From assembly GCA_025056865.1 (NCBI GenBank), contig JANWVO010000058.1, forward strand, positions 62,001 to 126,000: a DNA stretch of 64,000 nucleotides, in the 5' to 3' direction. This DNA comes from Bryobacteraceae bacterium (lineage in GTDB: Bacteria; Acidobacteriota; Terriglobia; Bryobacterales; Bryobacteraceae). The notes under the pieces were generated by a model. The model saw nothing but the letters and a program-made list of their open reading frames with translations, was not told the DNA's origin and did not search any database. This document shows, piece after piece, positions 53,308-60,492 of this stretch. Made by a program: the position numbers and the translations under genes. Numbering within the stretch: the first letter of the stretch is position 1; each line of letters opens with the position of its first letter.

Positions 53308-54198
53308 CTACGATGGTCTGTTCTCCGGGTCGGCGGGCGCAGTGCGCGCGCCCAGCGCCTCGTTGAGCGCGCCCTGCCGGTAGCCGCGCAGATCGAGCGC
53401 CGAATAAAGGAATCCGAGCCCGCGGAAGATCTCCTCGAACCGGTCGAACATTTCGAGCGAAAGGGCGCGCTCCATTTCACTCCGGTCGATTTCCAGCCGC
53501 GCCACTTCATTGTGGTAGCGGACGCGGAACTGCCGGAAGCCCAGGGCACGGATCTGCTCTTCGGCCAGCTCGATCCGCTTCAGCACCTCGGGAGTCACCG
53601 GAGTGCCATAGGGCACGCGCGAACTCAGGCAGGCGGCTGCGGGCCGGTCCCATGTGGGCAGCCCCGCCATCCGCGAAAGCTCGCGGATCTCCGCCTTCGA
53701 CAGGCCGGCCTCTACCAGCGGAGCCTTCACCCCGTGCAGCTTCGCCGCGTTCTGCCCGGGCCGGTAGTCGCCCAGGTCGTCGGTGTTCACCCCGTAGACG
53801 AGCACGGCTCCACCGTAGCGGGGCGCGATCTGCTCCATGCGGCGGAACAGCTCGTCTTTGCAGTGGTAGCAGCGGTCCGGGTTGTTGGCCACATAGGCCG
53901 GGTTGTCGAACTCGTGCGAGGGAATGAACTCGTGCCGGATGCCGTAACGGCGGGCGAAATCCGCCGCTTCCCGCTTGTGCGACTCGGGAATCGAGGGCGA
54001 GTCCGCCGTGACGGCGATGGCGTTGTCGCCCAGCACTTCCCGCGCCGCCCAGGCCAGATACGCCGAGTCCGTGCCGCCGGAATAGGCCACCAGAACGCGG
54101 CCCAGGCTCCGCAGGATGCGGAACAGCCGGTCCTGCTTCTCCCGCAGCACCCGAACGTCCTGCGCCGCGTTCCTTCCCAGTGACACGAGGCCCGTCAT
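53308..54198 (-). CDS. larE: LarE, ATP-dependent sacrificial sulfur transferase
   Basis: A 296-residue PP-loop enzyme. AYSGGTDSAYLAW (38-50) is the ATP pyrophosphatase loop; NNPDRCYHCKDELF holds a family CxxC, and C189 in PAAACLSSRVPYG aligns with the cysteine that donates sulfur. LarE supplies sulfur to the nickel-pincer nucleotide cofactor used by lactate racemase and other LarA enzymes. No larA, larB or larC is in the window. A perfect TATAAT sits six bases before the ATG, suggesting a leaderless mRNA. Confidence 0.92.
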   Translation of the reverse strand: MTGLVSLGRNAAQDVRVLREKQDRLFRILRSLGRVLVAYSGGTDSAYLAWAAREVLGDNAIAVTADSPSIPESHKREAADFARRYGIRHEFIPSHEFDNPAYVANNPDRCYHCKDELFRRMEQIAPRYGGAVLVYGVNTDDLGDYRPGQNAAKLHGVKAPLVEAGLSKAEIRELSRMAGLPTWDRPAAACLSSRVPYGTPVTPEVLKRIELAEEQIRALGFRQFRVRYHNEVARLEIDRSEMERALSLEMFDRFEEIFRGLGFLYSALDLRGYRQGALNEALGARTAPADPENRPS

Positions 54199-54204
54199 GC
54201 CTGC

Positions 54205-54210
54205 ATTATA
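54205..54210 (-). promoter_or_regulatory. larE: consensus TATAAT six bases before larE
   Basis: Read on the minus strand: TATAAT-GCAGGC-ATG. The predicted transcription start is the A of the start codon, with no room for a ribosome site. No convincing -35 is seen. Confidence 0.55.
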
Positions 54211-54350
54211 CCCGCCGGCGGAGGCACGGCCGCACGTCAGGCCCAGCCCCCTTTCCTGATGCAAACCGGATGCAGTGAACTCCCGCAGGGTCCCCGGCAG
54301 GGGATGCCTCCGGAAGGCTGGCGAACTGCGGATGTCGGTTCACTTTGTTC

Positions 54351-54379
54351 TTGACCAAAACGGTCCCAATTGGTAGACT
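54351..54379 (+). promoter_or_regulatory. sigma-70-type promoter of the TonB/ApbE operon
   Basis: TTGACC (54351-54356), a 17-base spacer and TAGACT (54374-54379). The spacing is ideal. A GACC-5-GGTC inverted repeat overlaps the -35. Transcription would start near 54386 and make a leader of about 155 bases. Confidence 0.65.
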
Positions 54380-54388
54380 GGCGATGAG

Positions 54389-54400
54389 CAGTTGCAACTG
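54389..54400. promoter_or_regulatory. 12-bp palindrome at the transcription start
   Basis: CAGTTGCAACTG is a perfect palindrome covering bases +4 to +15 of the predicted transcript. A repressor bound here would block the promoter. It does not resemble the standard Fur or NikR box, so the regulator is unknown. Confidence 0.45.
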
Positions 54401-54429
54401 TTTTGCAATAACAAACATGATCAGCGAAA

Positions 54430-54519
54430 GGCGGGCCGGGGTGCCCCTTCTGCAAGCGCCCGGCCCGCCCCAGCCACCGGTCGCGGCGGCTCTTCTGATT
54501 CTAGCCTGCCGCGGGCCGG
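54430..54519 (+). promoter_or_regulatory. structured 5' leader: two hairpins before the TonB receptor
   Basis: Hairpin 1: an 11-bp perfect GC stem (54430-54440 with 54459-54469) and an 18-base loop. Hairpin 2: CCGG and CGCGGC (54477-54487) pair with GCCGCG and CCGG (54508-54519) across a small internal loop. Neither is followed by a U tract. They end seven bases before the ribosome site GAGGAGG (54526-54532). I recognise no known riboswitch; the cobalamin and nickel/cobalt consensus blocks are not seen. Confidence 0.5.
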
Positions 54520-54540
54520 AGCAACGAGGAGGCATTCAAA

Positions 54541-57060
54541 ATGGCACTCATAGGAAAAACCTCATCATGGCTTCGCGTGGCGGTGGCCGCCTTGCCTGCG
54601 GCCTTCTGCGCATGGGCGGGAGCGGGGGAAGGCCCCGTGCCGGATCCGGCGGCGGGCGGCCGGCCCGCCCATTGTCCTTTTGAAATCGTAGTGCAGGATC
54701 CGACGGGAGCCCGGCTTCCGGGAGCGCTCGTGCAGGTTGCCGGGCCCGTGGACCAGCGGGGCGCCACGGACGGCGAGGGCCGCTTCTGCCTGGACTCCGG
54801 CCGCAGAGGGCGCTATGTGGCGGTGGTGGAAAGGACCGGTTTTGGCAAGAGATCTGCCGAGTTCGTCCCCGGCGAGACGGCCCAGCCGCTCGTCATCGAA
54901 CTTGAACCCGCACCGGTCCGGCAATCCATCGACGTGATCGCGGCCCCGGAGCTCGCGGCGGAAGCGGTGGAGAAGATCGCTGGCAGCCTGCTTGAGACAC
55001 CGCGCTCGATTACGGTCGTCGATGCAAACCAGTTGCGGGAAAGAAACTTCCGGGACCTGCACCAGCTTCTGGCCTTCATCCCCGGCATGGGCCCCAACAG
55101 CTTCCGGACCGGCGGCTACCACTTTTACGCGCGCGGGTTCCGCATGGGGGCTGAGGACGTGAGGGTGGACGGCGCGACGGGAGCGGCGCAGGGCGGCAGC
55201 TACAGTGTCTCCACCTTCGGGGTGGAACAGGTTGTGGCCCTGAAGGGGCCCGCCAGCCTCCAGTACGGCCCGGCGGGATCTCCGGGCGGCTTCATCAACC
55301 TGATCACCAAGAAGCCGCAGCCGCAGCGGGCAACGCAACTCGATTTCCGGACCGCTGCCGTAGCGGGCCAGGGGCTCGGACTTGCCGACCGCCCTTCGGC
55401 GATGTTCGATCTGGATTCCACGGGATCGGTAACAGCGGACAAGCGGTTGCAGTACCGCGCGCTGTTCACGGCCGAGAACCAGCGCTACTTCACGAACAAT
55501 GTGCTGGACCGCAACCGCTACATGCGCGGATCGCTGCTGTACCGACTGGACCGGAACGGGCTTTACACGGTGATGCCGCTGTTCCAGTACGGCTCCATGC
55601 TGCGCCCGGCGGGCGGCGGCCTGGTGATCAGCCCGTCTACCTCCCTTTCCACGAACGACGGGCTCGTCGGCCCAATTCAGACCGCCGATCTGACGCCCCA
55701 CACGGTCAACCATTCGGCCGGGCAGCAGCGCTACTACACCTCCCAGGCGGGGTTCGACTTCCGCGCCGTTCCCTCCTCCGCCTGGACCACAAACCTGAGC
55801 TACAGGTGGATGCGCAACGACCGTCACATCAACCAGTGGACGCCGGTTGTCAGCACGGCACCGCAGATCGCCATGCTGGTCAACCAGAGCGAAGTCCTGC
55901 GGCAGCAGTCGAAGAGCGACAACCGCAACCGCCACCATGTCGTCGACTTCAACACCGGCTACGAGCATCAGGGCAGCGGCTGGCGGATGCTCAACCAGAT
56001 TGGCGCCTACACGCGCGTCGTCGGCCTGGCGGCCACGTCGCTGGCCGGACCGCAGCCTGCCGCCGGGTGGCCCATTCACATCTACACGGGCGCGCAGCGG
56101 CTGGGAGCGCCGCAGGACACGTATCCGGCAATCATTCTTGGAGCCCCGCAGTTCACAACGTCCTGGAACAGTTACTGGCAGAACCGCACATGGCTGTTCG
56201 ACGGCCGTCTGGTGCTGACCCTCGGGCTCGGCTACGGGCAGATGCACCCTGGCGGCCAGCCGGTGCGCAAGGGCGAAGTGTTTCCCAACTACGCCGCGCT
56301 CTTCCGGCTGCGCGACAACGTGGCTGTGTACTACAGCTACTCGCGGAGCTTCAATCCGGTGGATCCGACGCTCGAGGATTTCCAGGGCCGCCGCAACGTG
56401 TTCGATCCCATCCGAGGCTACAACCACGAGGCGGGCATGAAATACGACCTGCCGGCGCGCCGCGCCTCGGCCACGGTGAGCTACTTCGACACGGGCATCG
56501 ACAACGCGCTGGTCCAGAGCGGAATCAACGACTTCAACGTCAACGGCGTGCGTTATTACGTGGCCGCCGGGACAAGGCGCGGGCGCGGCGTGGAGTCGAG
56601 CGTGGAAACGCGGCTGCTGCACGACCTGTTCCTGCGGGGCGGCGCCGCGTGGACCGAGGCCTGGTACACGGGCACCGGCCCGGCCAGCGCCGCTTCGACA
56701 CTGGCGATCCCCGGCTCGCGCGCCGAGAAAACGCCCCGCTGGAGCTGGAACGCGCAACTGCTGTATGAGCGCACCGAGGGGCGGCTGGCAGGCTGGAGCG
56801 CCTCGCTGGCGCTGCTGAATCAGGGCCGCCGCTTCGGCAGCAACGGCGCCCGCACGTTCAGCGCTCCGGATCCGCTGCTGCTGCCCGCCTACACGCGCGT
56901 GGACGCCAGCCTCGGCTATCGCCTGAACCGCCACTGGGACTGGGCGCTTTCGGTGGAGAACCTGACGGACCGCCGGATCTGGATCAACGCCACGACCGGG
57001 GCTTCGATGGAGCAGGCGCCGCCGCGGTCGGCCACGCTGCGGCTCAGCTACCGCTTCTGA
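54541..57060 (+). CDS. TonB-dependent (siderophore-type) outer-membrane receptor
   Basis: An 839-residue receptor. Signal peptide (ends CAWAGAG), a carboxypeptidase-regulatory domain at about 45-125 (VVQDPTGARLPGALVQVAG), plug about 135-270 (TPRSITVVDANQLRERNFRD; GFRMGAEDVRVDG; ALKGPASLQYGPAGSPGGFINLITKKP), and a barrel ending LSYRF. The plug motifs fit ferric-siderophore receptors. Genes downstream (PepSY, DUF2271, DUF4198, ApbE) suggest reductive handling of the imported metal; iron is most likely, nickel or cobalt possible. GAGGAGG lies eight bases before the ATG. First gene of a five-gene operon. Confidence 0.92.
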   Translation: MALIGKTSSWLRVAVAALPAAFCAWAGAGEGPVPDPAAGGRPAHCPFEIVVQDPTGARLPGALVQVAGPVDQRGATDGEGRFCLDSGRRGRYVAVVERTGFGKRSAEFVPGETAQPLVIELEPAPVRQSIDVIAAPELAAEAVEKIAGSLLETPRSITVVDANQLRERNFRDLHQLLAFIPGMGPNSFRTGGYHFYARGFRMGAEDVRVDGATGAAQGGSYSVSTFGVEQVVALKGPASLQYGPAGSPGGFINLITKKPQPQRATQLDFRTAAVAGQGLGLADRPSAMFDLDSTGSVTADKRLQYRALFTAENQRYFTNNVLDRNRYMRGSLLYRLDRNGLYTVMPLFQYGSMLRPAGGGLVISPSTSLSTNDGLVGPIQTADLTPHTVNHSAGQQRYYTSQAGFDFRAVPSSAWTTNLSYRWMRNDRHINQWTPVVSTAPQIAMLVNQSEVLRQQSKSDNRNRHHVVDFNTGYEHQGSGWRMLNQIGAYTRVVGLAATSLAGPQPAAGWPIHIYTGAQRLGAPQDTYPAIILGAPQFTTSWNSYWQNRTWLFDGRLVLTLGLGYGQMHPGGQPVRKGEVFPNYAALFRLRDNVAVYYSYSRSFNPVDPTLEDFQGRRNVFDPIRGYNHEAGMKYDLPARRASATVSYFDTGIDNALVQSGINDFNVNGVRYYVAAGTRRGRGVESSVETRLLHDLFLRGGAAWTEAWYTGTGPASAASTLAIPGSRAEKTPRWSWNAQLLYERTEGRLAGWSASLALLNQGRRFGSNGARTFSAPDPLLLPAYTRVDASLGYRLNRHWDWALSVENLTDRRIWINATTGASMEQAPPRSATLRLSYRF

Positions 57061-57075
57061 AGGTGGCGCTGCGGC

Positions 57076-57732
57076 ATGAATCCGGCATTCCGTCGCTCCC
57101 CTGCGCCGTCCAGCCGGCCGGCGCCGGCCCGGCCCGGCTGGAAGGCCCGCCTCTGGCAGCAGCTTCGGCTCTGGCATTGGGTCAGCTCGGCGCTCTCCTT
57201 GGCGGGCATGCTCCTGTTCGCCTTCACCGGCGTCACGCTGAACCATGCCGGCAGCATCACGGCGCGGCCGCGGGTGCAGGTGCGGGAGGCGGTGGCGCCC
57301 CAGGCCGTGCGCCAGGCGTTGCTCGAAGACTCTCCCGCCTCGCGGGAGCTGGCCGCGGCGTGGTTCCGCCAGTCGCTGGGCTTCCGGCTGGAACGCGCCC
57401 AGCTAGAGCGGCAGGGGAGCGAGCTGATGGCCAGCCTGCCGAGCCCCGGCGGGGATACCTGGCTGACCGTCGATCTGGACAGCGGCGCCGTTCACATGGA
57501 AAGAACGGACCGCGGCTGGATCGCCTACCTCAACGACCTGCACAAGGGGCGGCACACCGGCCGCGCCTGGTCGGTATTCCTCGATGTCTTCGCCGCCGCC
57601 TGCGCCGTGTTCTGCCTGACCGGGCTGGGCCTTCTCGCCCTGCACGCGCCGCGCCGGCCGATGACGTGGCCGGCGGCTGTGGCCGGGCTGCTGCTGCCTG
57701 CGCTGGTGGCGTTGTGGTTCATTCACCGATAG
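57076..57732 (+). CDS. PepSY-associated membrane protein
   Basis: A 218-residue inner-membrane protein with helices near 34-56 (HWVSSALSLAGMLLFAFTGVTLNH) and in the last 60 residues (two helices), a periplasmic PepSY-like middle, and the family motif DLHKGRHTGRAWSVFLD. Conserved histidines in the first helix and this motif could bind heme. Relatives are linked to ferric-siderophore reduction. It lies 15 bases after the receptor gene. Confidence 0.85.
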   Translation: MNPAFRRSPAPSSRPAPARPGWKARLWQQLRLWHWVSSALSLAGMLLFAFTGVTLNHAGSITARPRVQVREAVAPQAVRQALLEDSPASRELAAAWFRQSLGFRLERAQLERQGSELMASLPSPGGDTWLTVDLDSGAVHMERTDRGWIAYLNDLHKGRHTGRAWSVFLDVFAAACAVFCLTGLGLLALHAPRRPMTWPAAVAGLLLPALVALWFIHR

Positions 57733-57761
57733 GAAACATTTCCGTGGGAGGTTGTTTGAAG

Positions 57762-58274
57762 ATGAGGAAACGCTGGGCGGCGCTGGCCGCCGCCGGAATG
57801 ATGCAGCCTGCGGGCCCTGCCCGATGGCAGGCCGCCGTGGAAATCCCGCGAATCGAAGTGGCCGAATACCACCGCCCGTACGTCGCCCTCTGGCTCGAGA
57901 AGCCGGATGGTTCTTTCGTCGCCAATCTGGCCGTGTGGTACGACACCCGGCCGAAACGGGGCCAGGGCGAGGAGGGGACGGCTTGGCTGAAGGACCTCCG
58001 CGCCTGGTGGCGCAAAGTGGGCCGGGAGCTGACTTTGCCGGTCGACGGCGTCACGGGCCCGACGCGCGCGCCTGGCCGCCACGTGGCCCCGGTCAGCCCG
58101 GGCGCGCTGCCCCCGGGCGAGTACGTGCTCGTGGCCGAGGCGGCCCGCGAGCTGGGCGGCCGCGAGGTTCTTCGCGGACCTTTGCGGTGGGACGGGCGCC
58201 GCATCGAAGGCGGCCGACTCCAGGGCAGGGCGGAGCTCGGGGTGGTGGAGATTGCCGTTTCCGGGGAGAGGTAA
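57762..58274 (+). CDS. exported DUF2271 protein with flavinylation-like motif
   Basis: A 170-residue protein with a short hydrophobic N-terminus and a single Ig-like beta domain (VALWLEKPDGSFVANLAVWY). VDGVTGPTRAPGRHV contains D95-G-V-T-G-P-T101, close to the D-x-x-(S/T)-G-A-T site to which ApbE enzymes attach FMN; T101 would be the acceptor. Alanine is replaced by proline in the core. GGGAGG precedes the ATG by about ten bases. The ApbE gene is two genes downstream. I infer that this is an FMN-carrying periplasmic electron-transfer protein. Confidence 0.8.
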   Translation: MRKRWAALAAAGMMQPAGPARWQAAVEIPRIEVAEYHRPYVALWLEKPDGSFVANLAVWYDTRPKRGQGEEGTAWLKDLRAWWRKVGRELTLPVDGVTGPTRAPGRHVAPVSPGALPPGEYVLVAEAARELGGREVLRGPLRWDGRRIEGGRLQGRAELGVVEIAVSGER

Positions 58275-58278
58275 TGCC

Positions 58279-59082
58279 ATGCTGCGGGAAAAAACATTTC
58301 TTATGATTCTTGTTGCGGCGGTGCTGCTGGCTCCGGCGGCCGAGGCGCACCGGATGTGGCTGCTTCCGTCTTCCACGGTTCTCAGCGGCACAGAGGCCTG
58401 GGTCACCATCGATGCTGCTGTCTCCAACACGCTGTTCGTGTTCGAGCACCGGCCGCTGCGGCTGGACGGGATCGTCATCGAAGGGCCGGGCGGCCGCAGG
58501 CTCGCGCCGTCCAATCTGCACACCGGCCAGTTCCGCTCCAGCTTCGACCTGAAGCTGGATGCAGCCGGCACCTACCGCATCTCCGTTGTCAACCGCAGCG
58601 TGATGGCGAGCTGGAAGGAGAACGGCGAAATCCGGCGCTGGCGGGGCTCGCCTGAACAGATGAGCGGAAGTGTGCCATCGCAGGCCGAAGGTCTTCAGGT
58701 GTCGCGGATGGAGATGCGTGTGGAGACCTACGTGACGCTCGGCAAGCCCAGCCGGGACGTGCTCAGGACCGCCGGCGCCGGGCTGGAGATCCTGCCCGAA
58801 ACGCATCCCAATGATCTCGTGGCTGGCGAGGAGGCAGTATTTGTGCTGGTCCGGGATGGCGCGCCCGCGCCCGGAACCGAACTCACGGTCGCGTTGGGAG
58901 CTGGCCGGCATGCCGAGAAGCCATTCGAACAGAAGCTGGTCAGCGGACCGGACGGCCGCGTCCGGATCCGCTTCCCTGCCCCGGGATACTACTGGCTTCA
59001 GGCCACGGCGGGCGAAGGGAATCCCCAGAGCGGAGGCAGCCGCGCCACGTGCGTCGTCACTCTGGAAGTCCTGCCCCAATAG
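58279..59082 (+). CDS. periplasmic DUF4198 protein
   Basis: A 267-residue exported protein (signal ends AAEAH, leaving the mature N-terminal histidine after cleavage). The pattern HRMWLLPSSTVLSGTE with several beta strands (VFVLVRDGAPAPGTELTVAL, YYWLQATAGE) fits DUF4198, a family often named after periplasmic cobalt/nickel transport components. An exposed N-terminal histidine could bind metal like a histidine brace. Its start lies four bases after the preceding stop. Confidence 0.82.
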   Translation: MLREKTFLMILVAAVLLAPAAEAHRMWLLPSSTVLSGTEAWVTIDAAVSNTLFVFEHRPLRLDGIVIEGPGGRRLAPSNLHTGQFRSSFDLKLDAAGTYRISVVNRSVMASWKENGEIRRWRGSPEQMSGSVPSQAEGLQVSRMEMRVETYVTLGKPSRDVLRTAGAGLEILPETHPNDLVAGEEAVFVLVRDGAPAPGTELTVALGAGRHAEKPFEQKLVSGPDGRVRIRFPAPGYYWLQATAGEGNPQSGGSRATCVVTLEVLPQ

Positions 59083-60089
59083 CCAGGCGGCGAGTCCTCA
59101 TTCCGCAAGGCCCGCCGCCGCGGCCTCATCCCGAAGCGCGCATCGAGTTGCGGTGGCAGGGGCGGACAATGGGAACCACCTGGCAGGCGACCGCCTACGC
59201 GACGCCTGCCTGCGCGGCCAGGCACGAGGCGATCGGGCAGGGCATCCTCGAGCGGCTCGATTCGGTCGTCCGGCAGATGAGTCACTACGATCCGGACAGC
59301 GACCTGAGCCGCTATAACCGCGCAGCGCCGCACACCTGGGTGGCGGTGCCGGATGATCTGTTCCGGGTGCTGCGCGTCAGTCTCGAGATGGCGGCCGCCA
59401 CCTGCGGCTGGTTCGACCCCACCCTCGGCCGCCTCATCGATCTCTGGGGCCACGGCCCGGAACCTGCCCCCGGCCTTCCGGACGAGGCGGCCTTGTCGGC
59501 GGCAGTGGACCGCTGCGGTTGGCAGAAGCTGCGGCTGGATGCAGCGCGGAAGGCAGCCTGGCAGCCCGGCGGCCTGGAGTTGAATCTGGGCGGCATCGCC
59601 AAGGGTTTTGCCGTCGATGCAGTGGCTGCATGGCTGCGGCGCTGCGGCGTGGCCGCGGCGCTAGTCGAGATCGGCGGGGAACTGTCGGGTTTCGGCGTCA
59701 AGCCGGATGGCCTCCCCTGGTGGGTGGCGCTGGAAGCTCCGTTGCACGCGTCCGGCAGCACGGCGGAAACGGTTCTTGCTCTGCACGAATGTGCGGTGGC
59801 GACCTCGGGCGATTGGGTGCAGCGCCGCTGGCTGGGTTCCCGCTCCGTCAGCCATCTGATCGACCCGACCCGGGGCGCCCCCATCGACGGGCCTGTGGCC
59901 GGTGCCACCGTGATTCACGAAAGCGCCATGGCGGCCGACGCGTGGGCCACCGCTCTCTGCGTGGCGCCGCTGCGAACGGCGAAGCGGCTGGCCGACGCGC
60001 ACGGCCTCGCCGCCCGGCTGCTGTTTCAGGGAGAAACCGGCAAGTTGCAGGAATGGCTCAGCCCCGCCATGCGGGCCATGGCGGACTGA
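59049..60089 (+). CDS. apbE: FAD:protein FMN transferase (ApbE)
   Basis: About 346 residues if started at the GTG at 59049, which overlaps the previous gene by 34 bases; the ATG at 59169 begins the core motif RTMGTTW itself and is probably too late. Family marks: MGTTW, a VVRQMSHYDPDSDLSRYN segment, ELNLGGIAKGFAVD (FAD and Mg2+ binding), SHLIDPTRGAPI and the conserved TSGDW. It transfers FMN from FAD onto a threonine of a periplasmic partner. No classical FMN-binding (NqrC-like) partner is in the operon; the DUF2271 protein is the candidate. Confidence 0.92.
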   Translation: MRRHSGSPAPIARRRVLIPQGPPPRPHPEARIELRWQGRTMGTTWQATAYATPACAARHEAIGQGILERLDSVVRQMSHYDPDSDLSRYNRAAPHTWVAVPDDLFRVLRVSLEMAAATCGWFDPTLGRLIDLWGHGPEPAPGLPDEAALSAAVDRCGWQKLRLDAARKAAWQPGGLELNLGGIAKGFAVDAVAAWLRRCGVAAALVEIGGELSGFGVKPDGLPWWVALEAPLHASGSTAETVLALHECAVATSGDWVQRRWLGSRSVSHLIDPTRGAPIDGPVAGATVIHESAMAADAWATALCVAPLRTAKRLADAHGLAARLLFQGETGKLQEWLSPAMRAMAD

Positions 60090-60093
60090 CGAC

Positions 60094-60492
60094 TCAGAGG
60101 CTCCAGACGCGTTGCGTCAGGCACATGCGGCAGCAGCAGCCCGGCCGCAGGCGGCCGAGGAGCGCGCACCACCACCGGCGCAGCCGCGGCAGCGGCGATT
60201 CGCGCACCAGTTGCGGCCGCCGCGCCACTGCGGCCGCTACCGGCTCGATCTGCGCGTCGCCCAGAAGGAACACCGGCTCCGGCGCCGAAGCCGCAGCCAG
60301 CATGGCAGGCGCTTCCTCATCCATCGCCTCCACGCGGCGGAGATCGATGACCAGCGGACGCCCGTTGCGCATCGAGGCCGCCGTCGCCGCCGACGCCAGG
60401 ATCTCCGCGGCTGCACGGCGGTCCAGACGGCCCCGCACCTCGAATCGCAGCGCGTCCGGCTCATCGTGCAGATAAACGGAAGGTTCGCCCAC
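60094..60492 (-). CDS. STAS-domain protein with cysteine-rich tail
   Basis: A 132-residue protein. Residues 5-95 look like a STAS/anti-sigma-antagonist fold (RFEVRGRLDRRAAAEIL, PLVIDLRRVEAMDEEAPAMLAAA). The usual phosphorylatable serine after the DLRRV strand is absent. The last 25 residues contain four cysteines in GCCCRMC, unusual for this family and suggestive of metal or redox binding. It is convergent with apbE (four bases between stops) and divergent from the SQR gene. Confidence 0.62.
   Translation of the reverse strand: MGEPSVYLHDEPDALRFEVRGRLDRRAAAEILASAATAASMRNGRPLVIDLRRVEAMDEEAPAMLAAASAPEPVFLLGDAQIEPVAAAVARRPQLVRESPLPRLRRWWCALLGRLRPGCCCRMCLTQRVWSL

Follow-up and report, generated by a model that had tools for sequence, protein, structure and literature searches.

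A probable PepSY-like flavinylation operon for iron assimilation in a Bryobacteraceae genome

Introduction

A stretch of 64,000 nucleotides from a Bryobacteraceae bacterium (Acidobacteriota; GenBank assembly GCA_025056865.1, contig JANWVO010000058.1, positions 62,001 to 126,000; hereafter the window) contains five plus-strand genes at 54541-60089 that encode a TonB-dependent receptor, a PepSY membrane protein, a DUF2271 protein, a DUF4198 protein and the flavin transferase ApbE. We consider it very probable that this operon is a PepSY-like flavinylation system for iron assimilation, in which a flavin mononucleotide (FMN) on the DUF2271 protein would serve to reduce imported ferric iron.

Both the gene arrangement and the type of system are already published, and the window is an additional example with a few unusual details. 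In the survey that described PepSY-like flavinylation systems, 3220 clusters were reported, with DUF2271 in 2833, DUF4198 in 1500 and a TonB receptor in 231 of them, and a role in iron reduction was proposed (Meheust et al., 2021, PMC8238504). The operon adds a Bryobacteraceae member to this class of envelope iron reductases, and its flavinylation motif shows a natural change from Ala to Pro that recurs in relatives and is open to direct test. Its wider interest lies in the site of flavinylation, because the transferases of these operons have no recognisable signal peptide.

Organisation of the operon

Successive genes lie 15, 29 and 4 bases apart, except that the last two overlap by 34 bases, and all family assignments lie above the Pfam cut-offs:

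54541-57060, plus strand: TonB-dependent outer-membrane receptor, siderophore-receptor-like, with an N-terminal CarboxypepD_reg domain (TonB barrel, 102 bits; Plug, 58 bits)
57076-57732, plus strand: PepSY_TM_like_2 inner-membrane protein, probable haem electron carrier (PF16357, 211 bits)
57762-58274, plus strand: DUF2271 protein, probable FMN carrier (PF10029, 131 bits)
58044-58064, plus strand: flavinylation-type motif D95-G-V-T-G-P-T101 (T101 codon at 58062-58064)
58279-59082, plus strand: DUF4198 protein, secreted, probable periplasmic metal-binding protein (PF10670, 158 bits; His24 codon at 58348-58350)
59049-60089, plus strand: ApbE, FAD:protein FMN transferase (FAD, flavin adenine dinucleotide) without a signal peptide, GTG start (PF02424, 248 bits)

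Coordinates and scores agree with a preliminary description of the DNA, which had read five rightward genes with gaps of 29 bases or less and one overlap, and had proposed a flavin-based metal-reduction system. That proposal is supported by the published PepSY-like class and by the conservation of T101; FMN on T101, the way in which electrons flow and the identity of the metal are what we infer. PepSY-like systems are recognised by a PF03929 or PF16357 protein encoded no more than five genes away from ApbE, FMN_bind, DUF2271 or DUF3570, and the PepSY gene of the window, whose product also exceeds the cut-off of PF03929 (31.8 bits), is directly followed by that for DUF2271.

PepSY, DUF2271 and DUF4198 genes are all present in 78 of 80 named related loci; these are the best 80 of the 576 confirmed among the matches listed, so that close relatives are over-represented. 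One of the three genes is missing from L092 and one from L136. The grouping is above chance, given this co-occurrence and the presence of T101 in every DUF2271 sequence aligned.

The DUF2271 motif

The motif D95-G-V-T-G-P-T101 had been noticed in the preliminary description, which staked its reading on the conservation of T101 in homologues beside apbE. T101 is threonine in all 91 rows of an alignment of the window, the 80 named loci and ten from relatives (89 different sequences; L055 and L062 are one genome, present in two collections), G96 is likewise glycine in 91 of 91, and D95 is aspartate in 90. Position 98 is serine in 70 rows and threonine in 21; position 99 is glycine in 67, serine in 15, alanine in 8 and glutamine in one. 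A motif arising by chance is ruled out by this conservation.

At position 100 alanine is found in 70 rows and proline in 21, so that proline is not peculiar to the window. The tree needs at least eight changes between the two residues, two of them forced by well-supported branches, and proline is a recurrent variant of the flavinylation motif. L050, a member of the same genus, and L051 form a clade with the window sequence and share its GPT. A long branch leads to this clade; the remaining seven acidobacterial relatives aligned have GAT.

DUF2271 has been identified as an ApbE substrate, and that of A. ursilacus is flavinylated by its own ApbE and loses the flavin on a Thr-to-Ala change at the motif (PMC8238504). 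By analogy, T101 of the window protein would carry FMN. An apbE was located in 57 of the 90 loci that remain when the window is left out, in every case on the same strand; of the 33 in which none was found, 25 are pseudomonads by title or place in the tree. One operon without apbE, from Stutzerimonas (L068:8471-10030), has after DUF4198 a flavodoxin/NAD-reductase protein, a possible electron donor.

DUF2271 also occurs in other settings. Fusions to an ApbE-like part, which we take by eye to be ApbE, account for 31 of the 42 loci with a good DUF2271 match (acidobacterial; L004-L015, L029-L032 and L035-L049). A more distant DUF2271 group (L016-L018) carries D/E-A-V-[T/S]-x-P-T-P where the motif would be, with such a gene near an apbE in G300 and G464.

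The DUF2271 model has a pLDDT of 78.7. It gave only weak matches to beta-sandwich folds (best Foldseek E 0.023; best VIA Z 7.7), and a profile search of solved chains returned a designed protein (E 0.0036) and FlgD (E 0.0062), neither of them informative.

Partnership of DUF2271 and ApbE

The operon ApbE matches solved FMN transferases with E-values down to 7.9e-43, and H269, D272, D297 and T301 are each conserved in at least 56 of 58 rows. The genome of 4.18 Mb encodes one DUF2271 protein and two ApbEs. The preliminary description had remarked that no NqrC-like FMN-binding domain is encoded, and this extends to the whole genome: FMN_bind (PF04205) has no match in it, in a search that was positive in 4 of 14 control genomes and did not cover DUF3570 or NqrB/RnfD. 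The reading that the ApbE serves an NqrC-type carrier is rejected on this lack of an FMN_bind match. The second ApbE (L060:5624-6640), flanked by what are presumably infB and hemE, has a signal-like N-terminus (2.39 on the hydropathy scale described below). It is perhaps not a transferase, because glutamate and lysine replace D297 and T301, two active-site residues that are each kept in 57 of 58 rows.

Five related genomes vary in both proteins together. DUF2271 and an ApbE of the operon type are both present in G439 and G442, which have two ApbEs each, and both absent from G438, G440 and G441, whose sole ApbE is of the other type by profile span. In G441 (L176) larE and the downstream genes known from the window flank a receptor that is 76% identical over 817 residues, with the PepSY-to-ApbE block of four genes missing; in G438 (L177) all five genes are missing between the same neighbours, with the dyad and a promoter-like remnant still beside larE. 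The four genes from PepSY to ApbE come and go as a block. A decayed DUF2271 beside the empty site of G438 (phmmer E 4e-6) is absent from the tblastn hits at E 1e-3 and is not claimed here.

ApbE without a signal peptide

Signal peptides were assessed not with SignalP but from the most hydrophobic 11-residue stretch of each N-terminus, its mean hydropathy serving as the score and 1.9 as the pass value. By this measure the window ApbE reaches 0.35, and the in-frame stretch upstream of its start holds no hydrophobic segment, so that neither the signal peptide nor the lipoprotein signal of a periplasmic-type ApbE is apparent from hydropathy. The same holds for its relatives. Among the related operons 57 ApbE frames were found, of which four had no motif match and one no start codon; 51 of the 52 scored are without a hydrophobic signal segment, the exception being L127 of Luteibacter (at least 1.9). 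A tail of the form R-V-L-[I/V]-P stands shortly before the ApbE domain in 28 of the 57, and reads R-V-L-I-P in the window. The pass value is reached by 67 of 68 DUF4198 proteins (clearly so in the window, at 3.31), by 47 of 86 DUF2271 proteins (median 1.95) and by five of six other acidobacterial ApbEs; these last came from 11 loci, of which six were scorable with no start-codon limit applied. DUF4198 and the carrier DUF2271 seem to be exported, which makes the lack of a signal segment in the ApbE of these operons odd. Of the fusion N-termini, scored over a 110-residue stretch, 18 of 31 reach 1.9, and some of the others have a twin-arginine pattern by eye.

Tentatively, and as a minority possibility, the ApbE without a signal peptide, often with its R-V-L-[I/V]-P tail, could load FMN on the unfolded DUF2271 precursor in the cytosol, the precursor then being exported with its covalent FMN. 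If so, no supply of FAD outside the cytosol would be needed, in departure from the accepted scheme of a secreted ApbE that acts after export. A signal-less ApbE is not a general rule, because the A. ursilacus enzyme is termed signal-peptide-truncated by its authors (PMC8238504). The cytosolic ApbEs mentioned in a review are those of a fumarate reductase, soluble or fused, and no others (PMC12052999, accessible text), and no statement on the location of ApbE in operons such as this one was found in the accessible main text of the flavinylation literature.

The receptor, PepSY and DUF4198 proteins

The receptor matches TIGR01783 over its full length, at 187.6 bits against a model cut-off of 223.5, and its best solved relatives are CntO and FoxA. 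The PepSY protein is modelled as three long helices (mean pLDDT 89.3), in which His34, His57, His156, His190 and His217 are kept in 86, 88, 88, 80 and 87 of 90 rows, respectively. It is probably a haem protein and electron carrier; these histidines fit the haem binding described for PepSY proteins (PMC11334425). A comparison with solved structures gave no profile match, a best Foldseek E of 0.014 to unrelated proteins and a best VIA Z of 6.0; FoxB was not listed, which excludes nothing.

Of the 89 DUF4198 rows, all 80 that are ungapped at position 23 have alanine there, and all 82 ungapped at position 24 have histidine, so that a metal-binding histidine is probably the first residue of the mature protein. 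His57 and His176 are kept in 88 and 86 of the 89 rows. Solved structures gave matches only to two entries of another protein (E 2e-5 to 4e-5).

Promoter, dyad and regulation

Two elements precede the operon:

54351-54379, plus strand: sigma-70-like promoter, TTGACC-N17-TAGACT, the sole promoter-like site in 54200-60300 (mean of shuffles 0.2)
54392-54408, no strand assigned: dyad TTGCAACTGTTTTGCAA, of the form TTGCAA-N5-TTGCAA, 12 bases downstream of the -10 hexamer and probably the operator of a Fur-family repressor

Promoter and dyad are both kept in L050 and L051. At least 10 of the 12 dyad bases stand before the operon in eight of ten acidobacterial relatives, the others being L052 (9) and L056 (8). 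Its core, TGCAA-N5-TTGCA, occurs at five places in the genome and 11 in the five relatives, as against none and one for a reversed control. Of these 16 places, seven precede a TonB receptor or a PepSY/receptor pair by no more than about 470 bases: that of the window, one on contig 52 of the same genome (G000), one in G439, two in G441, and single ones in G438 and G440, where the protein matches are weak. On contig 52 (L160:2340-9013) the dyad is followed by a TonB receptor together with a CobN-type chelatase, which may be another member of the regulon. Within the window, three dyad matches with at most one mismatch are unremarkable, as 9 of 100 shuffles hold as many.

A classical Fur box, scored as 13 or more of 19 bases with no more than 1 of 30 shuffles, is present in 19 of 87 scored loci, all from Proteobacteria. 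Forms between the dyad and the Fur box are found at some alphaproteobacterial loci, for example TTGCGAATTATTCGCAA in L101 and TTGCAACTGACTCGCAA in L139. The genome encodes three Fur-family proteins. We found no literature on Mur/Fur boxes.

Relation to known systems

The published PepSY-like clusters combine the same PepSY, DUF2271, DUF4198 and ApbE genes, and the proline in place of alanine in the motif is the only difference found in the accessible description. An orthologous operon is CC3059-3063 of Caulobacter crescentus (CCNA_03155-03159), which belongs to the Fur regulon, is strongly induced by iron limitation and shows 12- to 51-fold changes among iron- and Fur-responsive genes (PMC3751524); insertions in it lower fitness in EDTA (PMC12004947). 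It shares with the window a membrane transporter/PepSY, DUF2271, DUF4198 and ApbE in the same order, but has a sulfite-reductase-type flavoprotein and no TonB receptor in its accessible listing, whereas the window has the receptor and no such reductase. In Alteromonas, DUF4198/DUF2271 pairs have been described beside iron-responsive receptors (PMC7190382).

FoxA/FoxB and HiuABC also pair a TonB receptor with a PepSY membrane protein, and FoxB is reported to reduce ferric siderophores (PMC12424826, PMC11334425). The accessible accounts of hiuABC mention no DUF2271, DUF4198 or ApbE, all three of which are present in the window, and the window PepSY protein gave no match to FoxB by profile or fold. 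The nickel-binding IsDUF4198 is, like its counterpart here, secreted with a histidine at the mature N-terminus (PMC12537917). The predicted metal site in the window protein (His24, His57 and His176) differs, however, in having tryptophan at the place of the second ligand, His18, and the conserved His57 and His176 instead; no sequence match to the IsDUF4198 structure was obtained at E up to 0.1.

Proposed mechanism and alternatives

We envisage that the receptor, to judge from its family, imports a ferric chelate into the periplasm. ApbE would transfer FMN from FAD to T101 of DUF2271, as is shown in print for a homologue, and the PepSY protein would supply this flavin with electrons, drawn either from the quinol pool or from the cytosol. 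The flavin would reduce Fe(III) and so detach Fe(II) from its chelator. The ion might then be held by the N-terminal histidine of DUF4198, and FeoB, which is encoded in the genome, may take up Fe(II). A Fur-family repressor probably acts at the dyad, as its position after the promoter and its conservation suggest. On the dyad evidence and the Caulobacter data, the likeliest regulator is an iron-sensing Fur-family protein, and the likeliest metal is iron. For iron speaks also L052, in which a siderophore-type receptor and a PKHD-type hydroxylase gene precede the same operon.

Several observations weigh against parts of this scheme, and some bear on the metal. Changes in a zur mutant are also listed for two genes of the Caulobacter operon (PMC4176598). 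The same machinery might serve nickel or cobalt, importing a chelate of either, with DUF4198 binding the ion, a Nur-type sensor at the dyad and the redox part releasing the ion from its carrier. The divergent neighbour of the operon encodes LarE, which we take to serve a nickel cofactor, CntO is a metal-pseudopaline receptor, and a CobN-type chelatase lies with a receptor behind one genomic dyad. At all 12 fixed bases the dyad of the window agrees with tTGCaa-N5-ttGCAA, the consensus for nickel-sensing Nur (PMC3919588), and the DUF4198 protein of another bacterium binds nickel with a Kd of 18 nM (PMC12537917). Against these stand the classical Fur boxes at orthologous operons with their alphaproteobacterial intermediates, and the repression of the Caulobacter operon by Fur with iron (PMC3751524). 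The nickel ligand His18 corresponds to Trp41 here (mature position 18, if the published numbering is that of the mature chain), and LarE, which is beside the operon in genus members (L050), was not found in L051. Moreover, nickel uptake is not known to require reduction. We therefore regard nickel or cobalt as an improbable substrate.

Other observations concern the flavin. The window motif, which begins with aspartate and ends in threonine as expected, has TGPT and so departs from the [S/T]GA[S/T] of the published logo, which is a trend over 282 proteins and not a family rule (PMC8238504). In another target, Gly-to-Ala and Ala-to-Val changes in the motif cut flavinylation to about half, with proline not mentioned in the accessible text (PMC12052999). 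The part of DUF2271 that holds the motif is modelled poorly (block means of 53-69 over residues 61-100). The aligned threonine is kept in the 33 loci without an apbE found, and also in the aligned fusions, which have lost the D and G of the motif (mostly VSSAT); because of these fusions the threonine alone proves nothing, and the full motif says more.

It could be argued from the proline, the long branch to the window clade and the threonine of the fusions that DUF2271 of this clade has lost flavinylation, the proline blocking ApbE, the threonine being structural and ApbE serving another protein. This we hold to be slightly less probable still than a nickel or cobalt system: D95 and G96 are retained almost throughout the alignment, proline recurs in 21 of its rows, DUF2271 and ApbE are jointly present or absent in the five relatives, and the genome search for FMN_bind, which left DUF3570 and NqrB/RnfD aside, offers no other carrier.

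Finally, the DUF2271 N-terminus of the window is the weakest of all those scored (1.07, the other 86 starting from 1.21). Together with an ApbE that has no signal peptide, this makes the location of enzyme and carrier, and the contact between them, uncertain in the flavinylation scheme proposed here.

Neighbouring genes

The operon is flanked by two minus-strand genes:

53308-54264, minus strand: LarE, divergent neighbour (TIGR00268, 306 bits)
60094-60492, minus strand: STAS-domain protein, downstream neighbour (flank annotation)

In four members of the genus (the window, L050, L176 and L177), larE diverges from the operon site across a common intergenic region. A plus-strand gene for a flavin oxidoreductase also lies downstream of the operon.

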